DNA of 64,000 nucleotides from positions 108,057,314 through 108,121,313 of the forward strand of contig OY755042.1 in NCBI GenBank assembly GCA_963576565.1, in the 5' to 3' direction. The notes under the pieces were generated by a model, which ran no database searches, was not told the origin of the DNA, and saw only the letters and a program-made list of their open reading frames with translations. The position numbers and the translations under genes were made by a program. Below, one piece after another: positions 2,175-58,925 of the stretch. This DNA comes from Aspidapion aeneum (Eukaryota > Arthropoda > Insecta > Coleoptera > Brentidae). Position 1 is the first letter of the stretch. Every line of letters starts with the position of its first letter.

Positions 2175-2525
2175 ATACGAAATAGTCAATATTATGGTGG
2201 AGTCGTTGAATACGAAATCAAACAGGTTATTGTCTTCCTCCACTAATTTTTAATTTGTTTTAAACATATAGTCCCGACATGTTTCGTAAGCAGAAACTTA
2301 CATTTTCAGTCTTCCTCCACTAATTTTTAATTTGTTTTAAACATATTTATGCCGACATGTTTCGTAAGCAGAAACTTACATCTTCAAGGGACATTAGGAC
2401 CAAACTTGCTTGACCAGCATCTTGTAATTTTAGGAAATAGTCCATATTATGGTGCAGTCGTTGAATTGGAAATCAAACAGGTTATTGTCTTCCTCCACTA
2501 ATTTTTAATTTGTTTTAAACATATT

Positions 2526-2570
2526 TATGCCGACATGTTTCGTAAGCAGAAACTTACATCTTCAGGGGAC
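2526..2570 (-). ncRNA. Hammerhead ribozyme motif, intact core (representative minus-strand copy)
   Basis: Read 5' to 3' on the minus strand: core CTGAAGA (C3 to A9, position 7 = A); one extra U; stem II GTAAG/CTTAC closed by a 6-nt loop; GAA (G12-A14); a 2-bp stem III AC/GT with a 2-nt loop; C17 at 2532. Predicted cleavage lies between 2532 and 2531. Stem I is GTCCC upstream with GGCATA downstream (G-C, G-C, a C-C mismatch, A-U, U-G). The tiny palindromic stem III (ACATGT) is the form known from newt satellite and PLE-associated hammerheads, which often act as dimers. An extra nucleotide between A9 and stem II is known in some natural hammerheads (chrysanthemum chlorotic mottle viroid). Copies with the same intact core start at 2532, 2888, 3066, 3244, 3599, 3776, 3954, 4309, 4487, 4665, 4843, 5199, 5377 and 5731. 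Confidence 0.82.
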
Positions 2571-5500
2571 ATTAGGACCAAACTTGCTTGACCAACATCG
2601 TGCAATTTTAAGAAATAGTCCATATTATGGTGGAGTCGTTGAATAGGAAATCAAACAGGTTATTGTCTTGCTCCACTAATTTTTAATTTGTTTTAAACAT
2701 ATTTATGGCGACATGTTTCGTAAGCAGAAACTTAGATCTTCAGGGGACATTAGGACCAAACTTGCTTGACCAGCATCGCGCAATTTTAGGAAATAGTCCA
2801 TATTATGGTGGAGTCGTTGAATAGGAAATCAAACAGGTTATTGTCTTCCTCCACTAATTTTTAATTTGTTTTAAACATATTTATGCCGACATGTTTCGTA
2901 AGCAGAAACTTACATCTTCAGGGGACATTAGGACCAAACTTGCTTGACCAGCATCGTGCAATTTTAAGAAATAGTCCATATTATGGTGGAGTCGTTGAAT
3001 AGGAAATCAAACAGGTTAATGTCTTGCTCCACTAATTTTTAATTTGTTTTAAACATATTTATGCCGACATGTTTCGTAAGCAGAAACTTACATCTTCAGG
3101 GGACATTAGGACCAAACTTGCTTGACCAGCATCGTGCAATTTTAGGAAATAGTCCATATTATGGTGGAGTCGTTGAATAGGAAATCAAACAGGTTATTGT
3201 CTTCCTCAATTAATTTTTAATTTGTTTTAAACATATTTATGCCGACATGTTTCGTAAGCAGACACTTACATCTTCAGGGGACATTAGGACCAAACTTGCT
3301 TGACCAGCATCGTGCAATTTTAGGAAATAGTCCATATTATCGTGGAGTCGTTGAATAGGAAATCAAACAGGTTATTGTCTTCCTCTACTAATTTTTAATT
3401 TGTTTTAAACATATAGTCCTGACATGTTTTGTAAGCAGAAACTTATATTTTCAGGGGACATTAGGAACAAACTTGCTTGACCAGCATCGTGCAATTTTAG
3501 GAAATAGTCCATATTATGGTGGAGTCGTTGAATAGGAAATCAAACAGGTTATTGTCTTCCTCCACTAATTTTTAATTTGTTTTAAACATATTTATGCCGA
3601 CATGTTTCGTAAGCAGAAACTTACATCTTCAGGGGACATTAGGACCAAACTTGCTTGAACAGCATCTTGTAATTTTAGGAAATAGTCCATATTATGGTAG
3701 AGTGGTTGAATAAGAAATCAAACAGGTTATTGTCTTCCTCCACTAATTTTTAATTTGTTTTAAACATATAGTTTCGACATGTTTCGTAAGCAGAAACTTA
3801 CATCTTCAGGGGACATTAGGACCAAACTTTCTTGACCAGCATCTTGTAATTTTAGGAAATAGTCCATATTATGGTGGAGTCGTTGAATAGGAAATCAAAC
3901 AGGTTATTGTCTTCCTCCACTAATTTTTAATTTGTTTTAAACATATTTATGCCGACATGTTTCGTAAGCAGAAACTTACATCTTCAGGGGACATTAGGAC
4001 CAAACTTGCTTGACCAGCATCGTGCAATTCTAGGAAATAGTCCATATTATGGTGGGGTCGTTGAATAGGAAATCAAACAGGTTATTGTCTTCCTCCACTA
4101 ATTTTTAATTTGTTTTAAACATATAGTCCTGACATGTTTTGTAAGCAGAAACTTACATTTTCAGGGGACATTAGGACCAAACTTGCTTGACCAGCATCGT
4201 GCAATTTTAGGAAATAGTCCATATTATGGTGGAGTCGTTGAATAGGAAATCAAACAGGTTATTGTCTTCTTCCACTAATTTTTAATTTGTTTTAAACATA
4301 TTTATGCCGACATGTTTCGTAAGCAGAAACTTACATCTTCAGGGGACATTAGGACCAAACTTGCTTGACCAGCATCGTGCAATTTTAGGAAATAGTCCAT
4401 ATTATGGTGGAGTCGTTGAATAGGAAATCAAACAGGTTATTGTCTTCCTCCACTAATTTTTAATTTGTTTTAAACATATTTGTGCCGACATGTTTCGTAA
4501 GCAGATACTTACATCTTCAGGGGACATTAGGACCAAACTTGCTTGACCAGCATCGTGCAATTTTAGGAAATAGTCCATATTATGGTGGAGTCGTTGAATA
4601 GGAAATCAAACAGGTTATTGTCTTGCTCCACTAATTTTTAATTTGTTTTAAACATATTTATGCCGACATGTTTCGTAAGCAGAAACTTACATCTTCAGGG
4701 GACATTAGGACCAAGCTTGCTTGACCAGCATCGTGCAATTTAAGGAAATAGTCCATATTATGGTGGAGTCGTTGAATAGGAAATCAAACAGGTTATTGTC
4801 TTGCTCCACTAATTTTTAATTTGTTTTAAACATATTTATACCGACATGTTTCGTAAGCAGAAACTTACATCTTCAGGGGACATTAGGACCAAACTTGCTT
4901 GACCAGCATCGTGCAATTTTAGGAAATAGTCCATATTATGGTGGAGTCGTTGAATAGGAAATCAAACAGGTTATTGTCTTCCTCCACTAATTTTTAATTT
5001 GTTTTAAACATATTTATGCCGACATGTTTCGTAAGCAGAAACTTACATTTTCAGGGGACATTAGGACCAAACTTGCTTGACCAGCATCGTGCAATTTTAG
5101 GAAATAGTCCATATTATGGTGGAGTCGTTGAATAGGAAATCAAACAGGTTATGGTCTTCCTCCACTAATTTTTAATTTGTTTTAAACATATTTATGCCGA
5201 CATGTTTCGTAAGCAGAAACTTACATCTTCAGGGGACATTAGGACCAAACTTGCTTGACCAGCATCGTGCAATTTTAGGAAATAGTCCATATTATCGTGG
5301 AGTCGTTGAATAGGAAATCAAACAGGTTATTGTCTTCCTCCACTAATTTTTAATTTGTTTTAAACATATTTATGCCGACATGTTTCGTAAGCAGAAACTT
5401 ACATCTTCAGGGGACATTAGGACCAAACTTGCTTGACCAGCATCGTGCAATTCTAGGAAATAGTCCATATTATGGTGGAGTCGTTGAATAGGAAATCAAA

Positions 5501-5935
5501 CAGGTTATAGTCTTCCTCCACTAATTTTTAATTTGTTTTAAACATATAATCCTGACATGTTTTGTAAGCAGAAACTTACATTTTCAGGGGACATTAGGAC
5601 CAAACTTGCTTGACCAGCATCGTGCAATTTTAGGAAATAGTCCATATTATGGTGGAGTCGTTGAATAGGAAATCAAACAGGTTATTGTCTTCCTCCACTA
5701 ATTTTTAATTTGTTTTAAACATATAGTTTCGACATGTTTCGTAAGCAGAAACTTACATCTTCAGGGGACATTAGGACCAAACTTTCTTGACCAGCATCTT
5801 GTAATTTTAGGAAATAGTCCATATTATGGTGGAGTGTTGAATAGGAAATCAAACAGGTTATTGTCTTCCTCCACTAATTTTTAATTTGTTTTAAATATAT
5901 AGTCCCGATATGTTTCGTAAGCAGAAACTTACATT

Positions 5936-6146
5936 AGTGGACGAAGACAATAACCTGTTTGATTTCCTATTCAACGACTCTACCATAATATGGACTATTT
6001 CCTAAAATTACAAGATGCTGGTCAAGCAAGTTTGGTCCTAATGTCCCCTGAAGATGTAAGTTTCTACTTACGAAACATGTCGAGACTATATGTTTAAAAC
6101 AAATTAAAACTTAGTGGATGAAGACAATAACCTGTTTGATTTCCTA
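5936..6146 (+). repeat. Inverted terminal unit of the array
   Basis: At 5935/5936 the array turns round: the preceding minus-strand unit stops inside its ribozyme region and the sequence continues as the reverse complement (AGTGGACGAAGACAATAACC). One full inverted unit plus the start of a second follows, ending in GATTTCCTA at 6146. The solo copy at 40146-40243 ends at exactly the same word, suggesting a true element terminus. Confidence 0.85.
6043..6086 (+). ncRNA. Hammerhead ribozyme motif, intact core (plus-strand copy)
   Basis: Stem I 5' strand GTCCC 6043-6047; CTGAAGA 6048-6054; extra U 6055; stem II GTAAG 6056-6060 with CTTAC 6067-6071; loop 6061-6066; GAA 6072-6074; stem III AC 6075-6076 with GT 6079-6080; C17 6081; stem I 3' strand GAGAC 6082-6086. 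Four of five stem I pairs form. Predicted cleavage is 3' of 6081. It is the only full copy on this strand. Confidence 0.8.
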
Positions 6147-6155
6147 CTAGTTATT
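6146..6155. repeat. 10-bp direct repeat, right flank of array
   Basis: ACTAGTTATT, identical to 2165-2174 (see that entry). Confidence 0.5.
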
Positions 6156-13989: not shown

Positions 13990-14850
13990 TTGTAAAGGTC
14001 TTTGAAAAACTAACATTTTGACATATTTGTCAATTGTCTACGTCAGGTCTGTCAAAAGCTAATTTTTTCAGTCTTCGTTAAAATTCTCAAGTTTTTTGCT
14101 TTAAACAAAAATCCTATTGAGTGATATCTTGTTTGAAAGGTCTTTGAATAGCCAACATTTTGGCGTAACTGCTCCTTGCCTATGTAAAACATGTCAAAAT
14201 CTATCCACTGTCAAACTTATTGTTTTACTATTTTTGATAATCCGTGCAAATTTTACAAGCTTGGTTCAATTATAGCTTCGAAAGGTCTTTCAAAAACTGA
14301 CAAATTTTTTTGACTTCAGTTTAAAGTGTTTAAAATGCCACGATCAAATGAAGATAAAATTGAAATAATTTTTTTATGGGCGAACAAGATATAGGAAAAC
14401 TAAACGCCTTTTCAACAATACATTTAAAGACAGACCTGTCTCATAAAAAAAAAAATTCAACTTTATCTTCATTTGATCGCGACATCTTAAAATACAAATT
14501 TGTCAAAAAGTTTAGAAAATATGTTTGACGTAAACAAGTGACAGCAACGTCAACATGTTAGTGTTTGAATATGCTATGGTTACACAAAACTTGTGGAATT
14601 TGTCAAAAATGGTAAAAGAATAAGTTTGGCAGTCGACAGATTTTGACACGTTTCACACAGGCAAGGGGCAGTTACGCCAAAATGTTTGTTTTTTCAAAGA
14701 TCTTTTAAATAAGTTATCATTCAATAGGGTTTTTGTTTAAAACAACAAACCTGTTAATTAAAAGAAAACTGAAAATATCAGGTTTGGCAGTCCATAGCTT
14801 TTGACAGATTTGACGTAGACAATTGACAGTTATGTTATATGGTTCAGTTA
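13990..14850. repeat. Large imperfect palindrome
   Basis: The left arm (about 14000-14355) contains GTCAATTGTCTACGTCA, CATTTTGGCGTAACTGC and GATCAAATGAAGATAAA. The right arm (about 14450-14850) contains their complements in reverse order, with the centre near 14400. Arms are several hundred bases but diverged. It looks like an old foldback element or an inverted duplication. Confidence 0.75.
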
Positions 14851-15310: not shown

Positions 15311-18300
15311 TAAACACGGACGCGGAGTTTAGTAAAGTTGCAAAGTTTCAAGTTTAAACGAAGTTGCTTTCCTTTTAAGCGTTTTTGAGATTTGAAACAA
15401 TAAAAAGAGAAACTTGCTTAAATATCCGTGTTTCTTTGTATGGAATAAAAAGTTTTAAATTAAGGACTATAATATTTTTTATCAGATCTTAAGAACTTTT
15501 TCTATGCTCGGAAAAATTTCCGTAAGCAAATTGTGATGATTATTTTTTAATTTCGCGAGTTTTACAATTGAATATGTCATTTTATGGAAAAAGGAAACAT
15601 TTTTCGTAAGTTCAACACACTAATTTAAAGGTCCTTAAATTTTTCTAGCAAAGATTCTTTGCTAAAGATTTTAAACAATAAAACGAGAAACTTGCTGAGA
15701 TAACCGTGATTCTTTGTACAAAATTAAAAGTTTTAAATTAAGGATTATTATACTATAGACGAAAATTTCCTTAAAGAAATTGTGATGATTATTTTTAGTT
15801 TTATAATTATTAAATATACCATTTTAAGAAACAAGAAGATATTTTTCGTAAGTTTGACACTTTTTTAAGTTGCAAAGTTTGAAGTTTAAGTTGCTTTGCT
15901 TTTAAGCGTTTTTGAGATTTGAAACAATAAAACGAGAAACCTGCTTAAATATCCGTGTTTCTTTGTATGGAATAAAAAGTTTTAAATTAAGGACTATAAT
16001 ATTTTTTATCAGATCTTAAGAACTTTTTCTATGCTGGGCAAAAATTTCCGTAGACAAATTGTGATGATTATATTTTAGTTTCGCGAGTTTTACAATTGAA
16101 TATGTCATTTTATGGAAAACGGAAACATTTTTCGTAAGTTCAGCACACTAAATTAAAGGTCCTTAAATTTTTCTAGCAAAGATTCTTTGCTAAAGATTTT
16201 AAACAATAAAACGAGAAACTTGCTGAGATAACCGTGATTGTTTGTATAAAATTAAAAGTTTTAAATTAAGGACTGTTATACTATGTTAGACCAAAATTTC
16301 CTTAAATAAATTTTGATGATTATTTTTAGTTTTATAATTATTAAATATACCATTTTATGAAATAAGAAGATATTTTTCGTAAGGTTGACACTTTTTTAAG
16401 TTGCAAAGTTTGAAGTTCAAACGAACTTACTTTGCTTTTAAGCATTTTTTAGATTTGAAAAAATAAAACGAGAGACTTGCTTAAATATCCGTGTTTCTTT
16501 GCATGGAATAAAAAGTTTTAAATTAAGGACTATAATATTTTTTATCAGATCTTAAGAACTTTTTCTATGCTGGGCAAAAATTTCCGTAAACAAATTGTGA
16601 TGATTATTTTTTAATTTCGCGAGTTTTACAATTAAATATGTCATTTTATGGAAAAAGGAAACATTTTTCGTAAGTTCAGCACACTAAATTAAAGGTCCTT
16701 GAATTTTTCTAGCAAAGATTCTTTGCTAAAGATTTTAAACAATAAAACGAGAAACTTGCTGAGATAACCGTGATTCTTTGTATAAAATTAAAAGTTTTAA
16801 ATTAAGGACTGTTATACTATGTTAGACGAAAATTTCCTTAAAGAAATTGTGATGATTATTTTTAGTTTTATAATTGTTAAATATACCATTTTATGAAATA
16901 AGAAGATATTTTTCGTAAGTTTGACCCTTTTTTAAGTTGCAAAGTTTGAAGCTTAAACGGAGTTGCTTTGCTTTTAAGCGTTTTTGAGATTTGAAACAAT
17001 AAAACAAGAAACTTGCTTAAATATCCGTGTTTCTTTGTATGGAATAACAAGTTTTAAATTAAGGACTATAATATTTTTTATCAGAACTTAAGAACTATTT
17101 TTATGTTGGGCGAAAGTTTCCTTAAACAAATTGTGATGATTATTTTTTAATTTCGCGAGTTTTACAATTGAATATGTCATTTTATGGAAAAAGGAAACAT
17201 TTTTCGTAAGTTCAACACTTAATAACTAAAAGGTCCTTAAATTTTTCTTGCTTAGTTTTGTACTTGATTTTAATTTATTATTTTACCTGTTTTATTTTTG
17301 TAATTTATTTGAGCAAAAGAGGTAATTAATTTTTTGTAAAAAAATTAACGCTAATTTTGACAATTTTAAAATGTTTATACAGGGTAAACCCAAACGCAGT
17401 GTCTACTAAATTTTCAAAGTTTAAACGGAGATGCTTTGCTAAAGATTTTAAACAATAAAACGAAAAACTTGCTTACTTAGATATTATATCCGTGATTCTT
17501 TATATAAAATTAAAAGTTTTAAATTAAGGACTATTATATTATGTTAGACGAAAATTTCCTTAAAGAAATTGTGATGATTATTTTTAGTTTTATAATTATT
17601 AAATATACCATTTTATGAAATAAGAAGATATTTTTCGTAAGTTTGAAACTTTTATAAGTTGTAAAGTTTCAAGTTTAAACGAAGGTGCTTTGCTTTTAAG
17701 CGTTTTTGAGATTTGAAAAAATAAAACGGGAAACTTTCTTAAATATCCGTGTTTCTATGTATGGAATAAAAAGTTTTAAATTAAGGACTATAATATCAGA
17801 TCTTAAGAACTTTTTCTATGCTGGGCAAAAATTTCCGTAAACAAATTGTGATGATTATTTTTTTATTTTTGCGAGTTTTACAATTGAATATGTCATTTTA
17901 TGGAAAAACGAAACATTTTTCGTAAGTTCAGCACAATAACTAAAAGGTCCTTAAATTTTTCTGGCTTAGTTTTGTACTTAATTGATTTTGATTTATTATT
18001 TCACCTGTTTTATTTTTGTAATTTATTTGCTTACTTCTTTATATCTAGCCGCGTTTGAGCAAAAGTGGTAATGAATTTTTTGTAAAAAAATTAACACTAA
18101 TTTCGGCCATTTTAACATGTTTAAACAGGGTAAACACAAACGCGGAGTTTACTAAATTTTTAAAGTTCAAACGAAAATGCTTTGTTAAAGATTTTAAACA
18201 ATAAAACGAGAAACTTGCCTACCTAGATATTATATCCGTGATTCTTTGTATAAAATTAAAAGTTTTAAATTAAGGACTATTATACTATGTTGGACGAAAA

Positions 18301-22473: not shown

Positions 22474-22649
22474 ATTTGTCACTTTCTTCTCTTGTTATGT
22501 AATATACTATTAATTTATTCTTAATTAATTATAAGATTCTACATACAATTTAAATGTATAGTATACCATTTAAAAATACTCTGCCAATCTATGGGCACCT
22601 AAGCTCACACTAGGTACTATAGTTATAGTGTTAGCTAATATAATCAAAA

Positions 22650-22990
22650 ACTGAAATATATTTTATTCAACTCCAGACTCAATTACCTTTCGTTTGATAC
22701 CACACAAGCCATGTTTTGACTTAAACTCAAATTTTTTAAATCTACCCCCACCCTTTTAAAAAAAACTAAAATGTATTTTGTTTAACTCCAGACTCAATTA
22801 CCTTTCGTTTGATATCACACACGCCATATTTTCACTTAAACTCTAATTTTTGACATCTACCCCCACCCTTTTTTAAAAAATAAACTAAAATTTATTTTTT
22901 TTAACTCCAGACTTAATTACCTTTCGTTTGATATCACACACGCCATATTTTCACATAAACTCTAATTTTTGGAATCTACCCCCACCCTTT
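22650..22990. repeat. Three tandem copies of a 115-bp repeat
   Basis: Each copy carries ACTCCAGACT.AATTACCTTTCGTTTGATA and ends in CTACCCCCACCCTTTT. Divergence between copies is about 10% by eye. Confidence 0.85.
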
Positions 22991-23119
22991 TATTTGGCTT
23001 GCGTTCGGTGGATTTTGTTCATTTTTAAATGGGACCATCACGGCCCAAGACCCAACTTAAGTACCAAATTTCATTAATATCGGACAAGTGGTTTTTGAGT
23101 TATGCGGGTTGGTCGTTAC

Positions 23120-29539: not shown

Positions 29540-30070
29540 TGACCAAACCCTTGTATGTGTATGTAAAATTATGTAAAAGTAACATTGCCCACTTCCAGAA
29601 ACGCTAGAGAGCTGAGCTTTGGCAGACTGATAGGAACAATGATAAAACTACAGAAAAAATTTAAAAAACCAAAAATTTTAATTTACTTCCCTCCCCTATA
29701 AATGTAAAGTTATATAAAAGTAACATTGCCCACTTCGAGAAACGCTAGAGACCTGAGCTTTGGAAGACTGATAGGAACTATGATAAAGCTATAGGAAAAA
29801 AAATTAAAAACACCAAAATTGAAATTTAGTTCCCTCCCCTATAAATGTAAAATTATGTAAAAGTAACATTCCTCACTTCTATAAACACTAGAGACCTGAG
29901 CTTTGGAAGTCTGACAGGAACTATGATAAAATTATATCAAAAAATTTAAAAACACCAAATATTTAATTTACTTCCTTTCTCTATAAATGTAAAGTTATGG
30001 AAAAGTAAAATTGCCCACTTCCAGAAAGGCTAGAGAGCTGAGCTTTGGAAGGCTGATAGGTACCATGAGA
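29540..30070. repeat. Four tandem copies of a 140-144 bp repeat
   Basis: Each unit has AACATTGCCCACTTCCAG, CTAGAGA.CTGAGCTTTGG and TCCCTCCCCTATAAATG. Starts of the first word are at about 29581, 29722, 29867 and 30006. Confidence 0.88.
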
Positions 30071-40145: not shown

Positions 40146-40243
40146 TGAAGATGAAAGTTTCTGCTTACGAAACATGTCGGGACTATTTGTTAAAAACAAA
40201 TTAAAAATTAGTGGAGGAAGACAATAACCTGTTTGATTTCCTA
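40146..40243 (+). repeat. Solo truncated copy of the ribozyme repeat
   Basis: Matches the array unit from the ribozyme core to GATTTCCTA. Stem I 3' strand GGGAC, stem III, GAA and most of stem II are kept. The core reads GTGAAGA in place of CTGAAGA, so C3, which pairs with G8 in the active site, is lost; it should not cleave. The 3' end coincides with the end of the inverted unit at 6146. Confidence 0.85.
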
Positions 40244-40889: not shown

Positions 40890-41062
40890 GAACCGAACCG
40901 AAAATACAAAAAGTCGAAAGTAAAAAAACAAAAGGTCGAAAATACAAAAGGGCAAAAATACAAAAGGTCGAAAATACAAAACATCGAAAATACAAAAGGT
41001 CGAAAGTACAAAAGGTCGAAAGTACATAAGGTCGAAAGTTCAAAAGGTTGAAAGTATGAAAA
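40890..41062. repeat. 16-bp minisatellite, left arm
   Basis: About ten units of GTACAAAAGGTCGAAA or close variants. Inverted relative to 41360-41645. Long frames here are artefacts of a period that is not a multiple of three. Confidence 0.95.
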
Positions 41063-41359: not shown

Positions 41360-41645
41360 TTTTTTCGATCTCTTGTACTTTCGAACTTTTGTACTTTTGA
41401 CCTTTTGTACTTTCGACATTTTGTACTTTCAACCTTTTGTACTTTCGACCTTTTGTACTTTAGACCTTTTGTACTTTCGACTTTTTGTACTTTCGACCTT
41501 TTGTTTTTCGACCTTTTGTACTTTCGACCTTTTGTACTTTCGACCTTTTGTACTTTCCACCTTTTGTATTTTCGACCTTTTGTATTTTCGACCTTATTTT
41601 TTCGACCTTTTGTACTTTCGACCTTTTGGACTTTCGACCTTTTAT
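41360..41645. repeat. 16-bp minisatellite, right arm (inverted)
   Basis: About seventeen units of TTTTGTACTTTCGACC. Together with 40890-41062 it forms a potential 170-bp hairpin around a 300-bp unique spacer. Frames of 84-116 residues in several phases and both strands are spurious (FRPFVLSTFCTFDLLY). Confidence 0.95.
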
Positions 41646-56250: not shown

Positions 56251-56580
56251 AAAACCATTTGGAGTATTTGAATTATTTCAATAAATATTATCTTGCCCCG
56301 GTGGGCGCCGGCGGCGTTCATTCGGTAGCAAACTCCTGTTAAAGTTCCCTTTAATAAAATTCCACCTGTTACGCCTCCTGATTTTAAGATTAATGTGAGA
56401 CCCGATTTTCCTTAATATTACGAACTTGGTTTAAATTATTTTCGTTCTCCCAGCAGCAAAGTTTATTTAAATTTCCCAAAATAATTAATTGTTTAGGTGC
56501 AGTAAATTCTCAAACGCTTATCAATATTATTATTATTCGAATCGGTGTACCTACCTTAATACCTTAAATTACGTTACGAC
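56251..56580. other. Intergenic, no gene seen
   Basis: About 330 bp between the LINE and the PLE. It may hold unrecognised 5' PLE sequence. No frame. Confidence 0.4.
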
Positions 56581-57800
56581 ATCGAATTAGATCCCGAAGA
56601 TAGATTTGTAAGTTTTGATGTAGAAAGTCTGTACACCAACCAACGTGCCAATAAATGAGTCACTCAGTATCATCAAAATCAAATTACAAACTGATGATAC
56701 ACTTCACGAGAGAACAACGCCATCAGTGGAGGGGGTGATAAATCTGTTGGGAGCTCTCTTGGAGATATGTTTTACGCGCAAAATGATGAAGTTCAAATGG
56801 GTTCGTCTCCTTCGCCAGTAGTGGTAGCAAACATCTACATGGAGTGAGAATCAAACCAAAACTATGGCTACGATAGATCGATGACACATTTATTATATGG
56901 CCGGAAAATTATGACGAACTACAGAATTTTCTACACCATCTGAACGGTATTCGGCCAACAATCAAATGCACCATAGAAATTGAAAAGGATTCGCCCTTAC
57001 CTTTTTTGGATGTTCTTGTCAAACGATTAGACAGAAACATTCAAACCACTGTTTATAGGAAACCTACACACACAGGACAGTCTCTAAATTTCATGTCTAA
57101 TCATTCTGTTGCTACAAAACAAGGAGTTATAAGAAGTTTGTATTTAAGAACCGTAAATATTTATAGTAATAATAAAGAACTAACCACGGAAATTAACAAC
57201 ATTAAAAAAGGACTTACAACAGAAGGTTATTCCGAGAAATTAATAAACTCAGCGATCTCCTAAATTAAAAACAAACGAAATATAGCAAATTCTCAAAATA
57301 ATAATCCGTTGGGTGTTATTAACATTCCATATAATTAAGGGATTTCAGAAAACACAAAACGAATAGCCAAGCACTATAATATAAAAACAGTATTTTCATC
57401 GGGAAATACGATAAGGAGTTTTGTAACTAAAACAAAACCAGAAAATCCCTCAAATAATAAGGATAATGTATTTACAAAATCTCGTGTGGTTAATCCTCGG
57501 GTTAATCATATGTTAGGGAAACGAAACGCCCTCTTCAGGTTAGAGTAAATGAACATCTAAAAAGTACCAAATTAGGGGATATTAAAAAATCCGGTTTAGC
57601 GGATCATGCATGGTCAAATGATCACAGGATTCGGTGGTCAGAAGATAAAGTTTTGCATAAGGAGTCGGTTTGGCGAAAACGAAAATTTATTGAAGCTGCG
57701 TTTATAATGTAAAATAAAGAAGTTTTCAGTCAACCAAGCACGGACATACCAAACATATGGAAACCACTCCTTAAGGAAAACAGGCGTCTTAGGATTAAAA
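56581..57800 (+). mobile_element. Penelope-like element: reverse transcriptase plus GIY-YIG endonuclease, decayed
   Basis: Motifs in order on the plus strand, in shifting frames: motif A DRFVSFDVESLYTN (56600-56640) leading into NVPINESLSIIK; motif B MGSSPSPVVVANIYME (56798-56850, normally GSPLSPVVANIYME); motif C, where Tyr of YVDD is a TAG stop and IDDTFIIWPENYDELQNF follows (56875-56930); then SPLPFLDVLVKR and TTVYRKPTHTGQSLNFMSNH in the 85-codon frame at 57006-57263. Downstream is a GIY-YIG segment: SCG..SSG.SYVRETKRP and VRVNEHLKSTKLG (57478-57570), then SGLADHAWSNDHRIRW and KRKFIEAAFIM. RT followed by GIY-YIG is diagnostic of Penelope-clade PLEs. At least four frameshifts or stops make it inactive. 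Confidence 0.9.
57006..57263 (+). pseudogene. PLE reverse transcriptase fragment (post-motif C)
   Basis: 85 codons from PFLDVLVKR through KLINSAIS and a stop, the conserved region after the PLE active site (PFLD..V...........VYRKPTHT). Flanking RT and endonuclease blocks lie in other frames. Confidence 0.85.
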
Positions 57801-58545: not shown

Positions 58546-58925
58546 TGACAAGTTTTTATTTAACAACAAGTGAAATTAAAGAAAGAAAAATTAGAAAAAA
58601 GTTTTCTGTCTTTGACCGGGACTCGAACCCGGAATCTCTTGCTATGTACGCAAACGCTCTTAACATTCAACCACCGAAGACCATACATAAATTTTCGGAA
58701 AACTTTCATCTATGCATGTGTGCGGTGTCTTAATACAAGAACGAGAAACTCTCAGGGTATTAACTCGACCAAGTCATCCAACTGATCTCTATAATTCTTC
58801 CCTCCCACTGTCAAAGGTATGAAAACTCAAATTAGACGTAAAGTCTCAACGTCTGAAAACATGAGATCACCAGAAAACTGTTTTCTTATTTTTCTTTCTT
58901 TAATTTCACTTGTTGTTTATAGTTT
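58546..58925 (-). mobile_element. tRNA-derived SINE between inverted tails
   Basis: A tRNA-like head on the minus strand (58609-58680) is followed by a tail. The tail (AACAACAAGTGAAATTAAAG, 58559-58606) is repeated inverted at 58872-58919. Either two SINEs sit tail-outward with one head lost, or the tRNA-like unit lies inside an inverted-repeat element. The interior right of the head (58690-58870) is unfamiliar. It lies 205 bp upstream of the ETHR start codon. Confidence 0.6.
58609..58680 (-). pseudogene. tRNA-like SINE head
   Basis: Minus strand: B box GGTTCGAGTCC exact; T arm CCGGG/CCCGG with 7-nt loop TTCGAGT; anticodon arm TTGC/GCAA with a 7-nt loop containing U33; A-box-like TGGTTGAATGTTAAGAGC; acceptor TCTTCGG/TCAAAGA with one mismatch. 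The D arm is poor. Best read as a SINE head or tRNA pseudogene, not a working tRNA. Confidence 0.6.

Follow-up and report, generated by a model that had tools for sequence, protein, structure and literature searches.

Metazoan non-LTR retrozymes are described as tandem repeats of 150 to 450 bp that have a type I hammerhead ribozyme and a low GC content but lack LTR, PBS, and PPT; insects are among their hosts, coral arrays reach 62-mers, and the target-site duplication, when present, is longer than 4 bp (PMC7229834). As far as that account goes, it reports linear and circular retrozyme RNAs of about 170 to 400 nt, characterizes the circle as highly self-paired with no threshold given, and places retrozymes in genomes that also carry Penelope-like elements (PLEs). 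The hammerheads of newt and axolotl are stated there to be more active as dimers (PMC7229834). In its treatment of retrozymes, a 2020 review found the repeats to be without a motif that identifies an autonomous partner and named PLEs as likely candidates (PMC7761336), a 2022 guide suggested that retrozymes may depend on PLEs (PMC8969392), and a 2024 review presents the proposal that retrozymes are possible reduced PLEs (PMC11722881).

Integration by PLEs has been described for an element from Anolis (PMC11167929). The PLE protein is reported to cleave and extend both target strands, with a preference for ATT in AT-rich DNA, and to initiate internally at two sites whose spacing equals the tail, which is 30 to 40 bp long in Penelope. 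According to the same description (PMC11167929), the ORF has its start at stem II of the hammerhead, 26 bp upstream of the cut, the template requires the first 172 nt of the ORF, and the hammerhead does not cut without protein, with hammerhead mutants inserting normally. Rotifer Penelope inserts were reported with an inverted pLTR beside direct pLTRs and, on one inverted pLTR, a 31-bp tail; duplications of 8, 9 or 10 bp accompanied some inserts and none accompanied others, and pLTRs alone were sufficient for integration in trans in some cases (PMC3846280). PLE-type hammerheads are described in the 2020 review as minimal variants without helix III or loop contacts (PMC7761336). A retrozyme-PLE partnership is already suspected in print, and the new part of the present analysis is the structure of the insertion ends. 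No report of such ends on retrozymes was found in the literature surveyed, which consisted mostly of titles and abstract openings.

The window analyzed here is a 64,000-nucleotide stretch of the genome of the beetle Aspidapion aeneum with a GC content of 33%. Near its left edge lies a tandem array that is most informative through its Penelope-style anatomy as one whole insertion. The features discussed below are the following, with coordinates counted from the first base of the window.

2164-2174, no strand: left copy of the target-site duplication, TACTAGTTATT, an exact 11-bp match to 6145-6155.
2175-2309, minus strand: outer copy, incomplete, that starts in the hammerhead core (CTGAAAATG, lacking G8) and stops at 3' end site B (CTATTTCGTA), the end with the 35-nt tail (unit alignment).
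2354-5906, minus strand: 20 full tandem units of 176 to 178 bp (TRF, cut-site split, site audit).
2532-2565, minus strand: one candidate hammerhead of the major type, CTGAAGA-U-GTAAG/CTTAC-GAA-A[CATG]U-C, with 5/6 stem I pairs and a C.C mismatch (site audit).
4920-4926, minus strand: TTTCCTA motif serving as 3' end site B, in the unit that also contains site A at 4955-4961; it stops 101 nt past the predicted cut (alignment).
4955-4961, minus strand: TTTCCTA motif of a consensus unit that serves as 3' end site A and stops 66 nt past the predicted cut (alignment).
5907-5935, minus strand: truncated hammerhead at the inversion junction, where the minus copy, starting near (A)ATGTAAG, joins the inverted copy.
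5936-6144, plus strand: inverted copy of about 1.2 units that runs to site A (GATTTCC), its outer 3' end without a tail.
6048-6081, plus strand: candidate hammerhead with an intact core and 4/5 stem I pairs (site audit).
6145-6155, no strand: right copy of the target-site duplication, TACTAGTTATT, an exact match to the left copy.
40146-40243, plus strand: diverged solo copy of 98 bp that starts in the hammerhead core (TGAAGATG) and ends at site A (GATTTCCTA).
56560-57710, plus strand: decayed reverse transcriptase relic (protein matches to the piece at 56877-57263).

TRF applied to the window reported a 178-bp unit in 20.4 copies with 96% matches (2309-5934). Splitting the array at the predicted cut gave 22 minus-strand sites, 20 full units of 176 to 178 bp and, on the left, a 78-nt one; the full units, with a partial and an inverted copy, bear out the original observation of about 22 copies of a 177- to 178-bp unit. 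The full units (n = 20) have a mean identity of 96% with their subtypes interspersed, and no clear higher-order period was evident in the array, where mean differences lay between 6.0 and 8.3 at lags of 1 to 11. Variability directly after the cut is mainly a contrast between two subtypes. By inspection, the GC content of the unit is low and the repeats are without an LTR. No stop-to-stop frame of at least 110 aa occurs within 2175-6144, and hence no RT or GIY-YIG ORF lies inside the insertion.

Both copies of TACTAGTTATT directly abut the array limits. When the flanks were Markov shuffled, the boundary windows shared 11 bases in 0 of 20,000 trials and at least 10 bases in 1 of 20,000. Because the first TA may be part of the element's own TTTCCTA at the right end, the length of the duplication is given as 9 to 11 bp. 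Judged by its sequence, the whole array is a single insertion inside one target duplication. Both outer ends of this insertion are 3' ends of the hammerhead strand and point outward, the right end reading GATTTCC(TA) and the left end CTATTTCGTA(T); neither array end carries poly(A) or a simple repeat. The unit contains two TTTCCTA motifs, 35 nt apart, which end 99 and 134 nt from hammerhead U4. Site A is the end point of the right end of the array and of the solo copy, and site B, 35 nt beyond it, is used by the left end, placing the left, right, and solo 3' ends all at TTTC(C/G)TA. Three 5' breaks likewise fall within a few nucleotides of each other in the hammerhead core, beside an AUG: TGAAGATG in the solo copy, (C)TGAAAATG in the left remnant (the 5'-side junction of the partial outer copy at 2175-2309, where GAAGAC is followed by TGAAAATG), and (A)ATGTAAG at the inversion junction. 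In a rough, post hoc estimate, the coincidence of the three 3' ends has a chance of 1.8e-4 and that of two further 5' ends a chance of 0.004, with the qualification that both array ends stem from one event, which leaves two independent events.

The AUG in question lies at hammerhead stem II, within CTGAAG-ATG, at A9-U-G. Counting from its A, the cut follows nt 28 and the two end sites finish at +94 and +129 in a unit of 178 nt. Array units read ATG TAA, and therefore no ORF follows the AUG. The solo copy has GGGAC after the cut, has lost C3, and pairs 4/5 in stem II; its end is followed by AAAAATT, a run of A, and a search for a target duplication at 40146-40243 found none that was recognizable. 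In the solo copy, the reading frame that opens at the AUG contains one stop and looked protein-like. A search of its 42-residue read-through for a PLE-like N-terminus, a weak test with so short a query, found no relative: it returned 8 candidates by shared words and none at an E value of 10 or below. Four features go beyond the first reading of this DNA: the solo copy, the target duplication, the outward orientation of the 3' ends, and the distance of 35 nt between the end sites.

Type I hammerheads are defined by a core of CUGANGA ... GAA ... A-U H, in that order, with stem I open. On the sense strand, a unit reads GTCCC-CTGAAGA-U-GTAAG-loop-CTTAC-GAA-A[CATG]U-C, with the predicted cut after this C and the 3' side of stem I next. 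The audit covered 24 sites, 22 on the minus strand and one each in the inverted (plus-strand) copy and the solo copy. The minimal type I core was intact in 15/22 minus-strand sites and in the plus copy and was broken in the solo copy. Stem II was full in 14 of the 15 intact minus-strand cores, its first pair being broken at 2710, and once this site is left out the earlier count of 14 minus-strand cores and 1 plus-strand core is reproduced. The expected 5' end at 2531 on the minus strand is also confirmed as a position, with the predicted cut falling between 2532 and 2531. The remaining 7/22 minus-strand cores are broken at the inversion junction (5907), by changes in both G8 and G12 (5554, 4131, and 3421), by a changed G8 (5021 and 2276), or by a changed C3 (2354).

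An additional U between CTGAAGA and stem II is present in 24/24 audited sites, and stem I is imperfect in 24/24. With 0/24 sites combining a full core with a complete (5/5) stem I, cleavage is a prediction. The weak stem I foreseen for the major type was found, with 5/6 pairs around a C.C mismatch. A stronger subtype pairing GGGAC with GTCCC, also claimed at that stage, fails because the copies that have GGGAC lack working cores: within the array this form occurs only at 5907 and 2276, where damage affects the core as well as the GTCCC partner strand, and the GGGAC-bearing solo copy lacks the partner too. Across 20 units, core columns differed at 0.031 per site versus 0.024 for the rest. The core is no better conserved than its surroundings, so the present array gives no sign of selection for cleavage, and a later satellite-type turnover of the array is likely.

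A strict descriptor, written after the motif had been seen, required the core, both stem II and stem III, and a minimum of 4/6 stem I pairs. It matched 13 sites in the window, all of them in the array (12 minus, 1 plus), and on Markov shuffles it matched 4 times in 3,598,800 window bases (one strand) and in 6 of 20,000 shuffled units, which makes the motif a rare chance product. A relaxed scan outside the array returned a single site at 14319 on the minus strand, with position 9 changed, which was judged to be chance. A degenerate hammerhead pattern matched nothing in contigs of viruses or of bacterial and archaeal genomes, collections that do not represent insects. Rfam hammerhead models gave no match at the gathering score, nor at an E value of 10 or below, for the whole array or for single copies searched one at a time. 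The original prediction had listed the lack of such a match as one of three results that would jointly count against it, and this one of the three was obtained. The minimal, PLE-type build of these hammerheads may be the cause of the miss. MicroRNA-model matches at 5836-5975 were below their gathering scores, were triggered by the inverted repeat, and were set aside.

Fold predictions argue against a single hammerhead that is stable. For three copies constrained to the strict hammerhead structure, the energies were +0.2, +3.0, and −0.2 kcal/mol versus minimum free energies (MFE) of −9.6, −7.4, and −8.8 kcal/mol, and thus unfavorable in 3/3. In a two-unit transcript, stem II formed with a probability of 0.96 to 0.99 and stem I with a probability of 0.0. 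When two strands of the major type were folded together, the best duplex was ATGTCGGCAT self-paired over the cut site rather than a hammerhead helix III. One unit folded as a circle had an MFE of −27.7 and a z score of −0.42 against 300 Markov shuffles, indicating no unusual self-pairing. The retrozyme identity originally proposed for the array is partly supported by these data: the repeat size, minimal type I core, long duplication, and dispersed copy speak for it, and the missing covariance-model match, the unfavorable folds, the stem I probability of 0.0, and the failed stronger subtype are its weak points.

Elsewhere in the window, the reverse transcriptase relic at 56560-57710 is probably a Penelope-like element, a family call that in part we presume. 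Among 80 protein matches to the piece at 56877-57263, 53 were labeled PF26215 and 9 RVT_1, and the two relatives named to species are both beetles. The relic pieces tested had no match in Pfam, in NCBIfam at the curated cutoff, or in PDB. The PF26215 label is that of the protein database; a Pfam rescan of five proteins so labeled found RVT_1 in three and nothing in two. A pattern made from the relic matched 11 times in viral contigs, with no relative among these matches. LINE-type reverse transcriptase pieces (RVT_1) are also present in the window. Among the best 120 of 6682 matches to one LINE fragment, the highest-placed relatives with a species name were from two beetles, Callosobruchus chinensis at 47% identity and Gonioctena quinquepunctata at 49%, with moth and butterfly names below both in the same 120.

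The end structures suggest that the array is a non-autonomous small retroelement of the retrozyme kind, placed in one insertion by PLE machinery. We assign this reading, which draws on one array and one solo copy within the window, a probability of roughly 0.7. Points against it are the missing Rfam match, a core and a stem I without preferential upkeep, the unfavorable folds, the AUG frame that found no relative, the solo copy's lack of a duplication and its trailing A-run, the relic unconfirmed by family models, and a duplication that may exceed the rotifer Penelope values by one base. Under this model, a PLE protein would bind the RNA and cut both strands of an AT-rich target, reverse transcription would start internally at either TTTCCTA site, and the two cDNAs would then join head-to-head. 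Multimers could derive from a circle or from a multimeric transcript, and unequal crossing-over may later have mixed the subtypes. Cleavage by the hammerhead would reduce transcripts to 178-nt units and would probably require a dimer or assistance from protein. Since the copies continue across the cut site, their RNA template would have been either uncut at this hammerhead or re-ligated.

Several properties of the repeats would be expected of an ordinary satellite, in which a 178-bp unit spread by unequal crossing-over and the hammerhead is a relic or a chance resemblance that is no longer relevant. The 20 full units with 96% mean identity and interspersed subtypes fit such a history, as do a core that is not more conserved than the rest, 7/22 broken minus-strand cores, a stem I left uncompensated, and a circular fold (z = −0.42) like that of shuffled sequence. 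A satellite does not account for a target duplication that brackets the array, for two ends at a repeated motif, for one inverted copy, or for a dispersed solo copy that has an end in common with the array, and we consider it unlikely as the whole explanation. Satellite-type amplification after insertion is compatible with the PLE-mediated reading as well.

Other mobile elements could also leave a duplication and inverted units. In a non-autonomous DNA transposon, in the style of Mutator or foldback elements, TAGGAAAT would serve as short terminal inverted repeats around internal tandem repeats, with a 9- to 11-bp duplication; the outer ends do read TAGGAAAT or TACGAAAT inwards, and both the duplication and long inverted units are present. 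This reading was dropped as very improbable because the ends diverge past about 8 bp and the solo copy at 40146-40243 has one such end only; in addition, the left end reaches 35 nt further along the unit than the right. The same element could instead have been moved by a LINE, with the inversion arising from twin priming, given that LINE-type RVT_1 pieces occur in the window and that the end of the solo copy is followed by an A-run (CCTAAAAAATT). Twin priming yields inversions, with the second end at some internal position that bears no relation to the first. Here, unlike in twin priming, both array ends lie at the same motif, 35 nt apart, and the array ends without poly(A) or a simple repeat. 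Movement by a LINE is likewise considered very improbable.

Placement by PLE machinery, if true, would make the end structure direct sequence evidence for the reduced-PLE idea that is already published. Tailed, defined ends of the PLE type would constitute the kind of motif by which a partner can be recognized, one that is searchable in any retrozyme-bearing genome. As a tentative extension, to which we give less than even odds, the 178-nt unit could be a Penelope element reduced to its cis-acting core, namely, the hammerhead, the AUG, and the two internal start sites, and animal retrozymes could be PLE pLTRs that exist as circular or multimeric RNA and re-enter the genome by the two-site, two-strand internal priming of PLEs.

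Compared with metazoan retrozymes as they are described, the locus is alike in repeat size, tandem copies, low GC content, a long duplication, and a dispersed second copy. It differs in that its hammerhead is minimal, with a one-pair helix III, a weak stem I, and an extra U, and in the unexceptional degree of self-pairing predicted for its circle. The satellite or retrozyme hammerheads of newt and axolotl have a similar one-pair helix III with a palindromic tetraloop, and HHR_Amex1 of the axolotl in particular has an A-U helix III with a palindromic CATG, although their units are given as 330 to 350 bp (PMC7229834). Another insect satellite that carries a hammerhead is pDo500 of Dolichopoda cave crickets; its reported unit of about 500 bp, compensatory changes, and in vitro self-cleavage set it apart from the present array, which has no such conservation (PMC2837043).

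Differences from PLEs lie in the content of the insertion, which has no RT or endonuclease ORF and consists of 20 tandem copies of the unit alone, and in details of position and length. End sites lie 111 to 118 from the AUG in the description of the Anolis PLE versus +94 and +129 here (PMC11167929), and the 9- to 11-bp duplication is possibly one base longer than the 8 to 10 bp quoted for rotifer Penelope (PMC3846280). With the PLEs and pLTRs described so far in these sources, the locus shares direct and inverted repeats, 3' ends that face outward, one tailed end, and a duplication of similar length. It further shares with PLEs a hammerhead that overlaps an AUG and two putative internal start sites, here spaced 35 nt apart, and its 178-nt unit is about equal in size to the minimal template reported for the Anolis PLE, the first 172 nt of the ORF (PMC11167929).

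In units of the major type, the commoner subtype of the hammerhead-bearing tandem array, the predicted cleavage position (e.g., around 2532) is straddled by ATGTCGGCAT, a segment that is nearly self-complementary. This near self-complementarity could promote dimerization in competition with the hammerhead. A long inverted repeat makes up the end of the array (5666 to 6146), and close to its center lies a partial hammerhead. Rfam microRNA models respond to this inverted repeat with scores below their gathering scores.

Further features of the window are as follows.
15665 to 17073, diverged tandem repeat (5.3 copies of a ~279-bp unit, with 64% matches)
22646 to 22991, short tandem array with a 119-bp unit
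29561 to 30068, short tandem array with a 143-bp unit
40923 to 41053, first of two 16-bp minisatellite arrays (unit AAAATACAAAAGGTCG or its reverse complement)
41363 to 41643, second 16-bp minisatellite array (unit AAAATACAAAAGGTCG or its reverse complement)
58607 to 58681, minus strand, tRNA-Cys-like gene (anticodon aca; Rfam score, 35.7 bits)

A scan of the window with the hammerhead descriptor, a pattern of core, stems, and stem I pairing written after the motif had been seen, found no hammerhead in the ~279-bp repeat. Because aca is an unusual anticodon for Cys and the Rfam score is modest (gathering score, 29), the tRNA-Cys-like gene may be a decayed tRNA or a tRNA-derived repeat. The two minisatellite arrays share one 16-bp unit in opposite orientations and resemble the arms of a foldback element.
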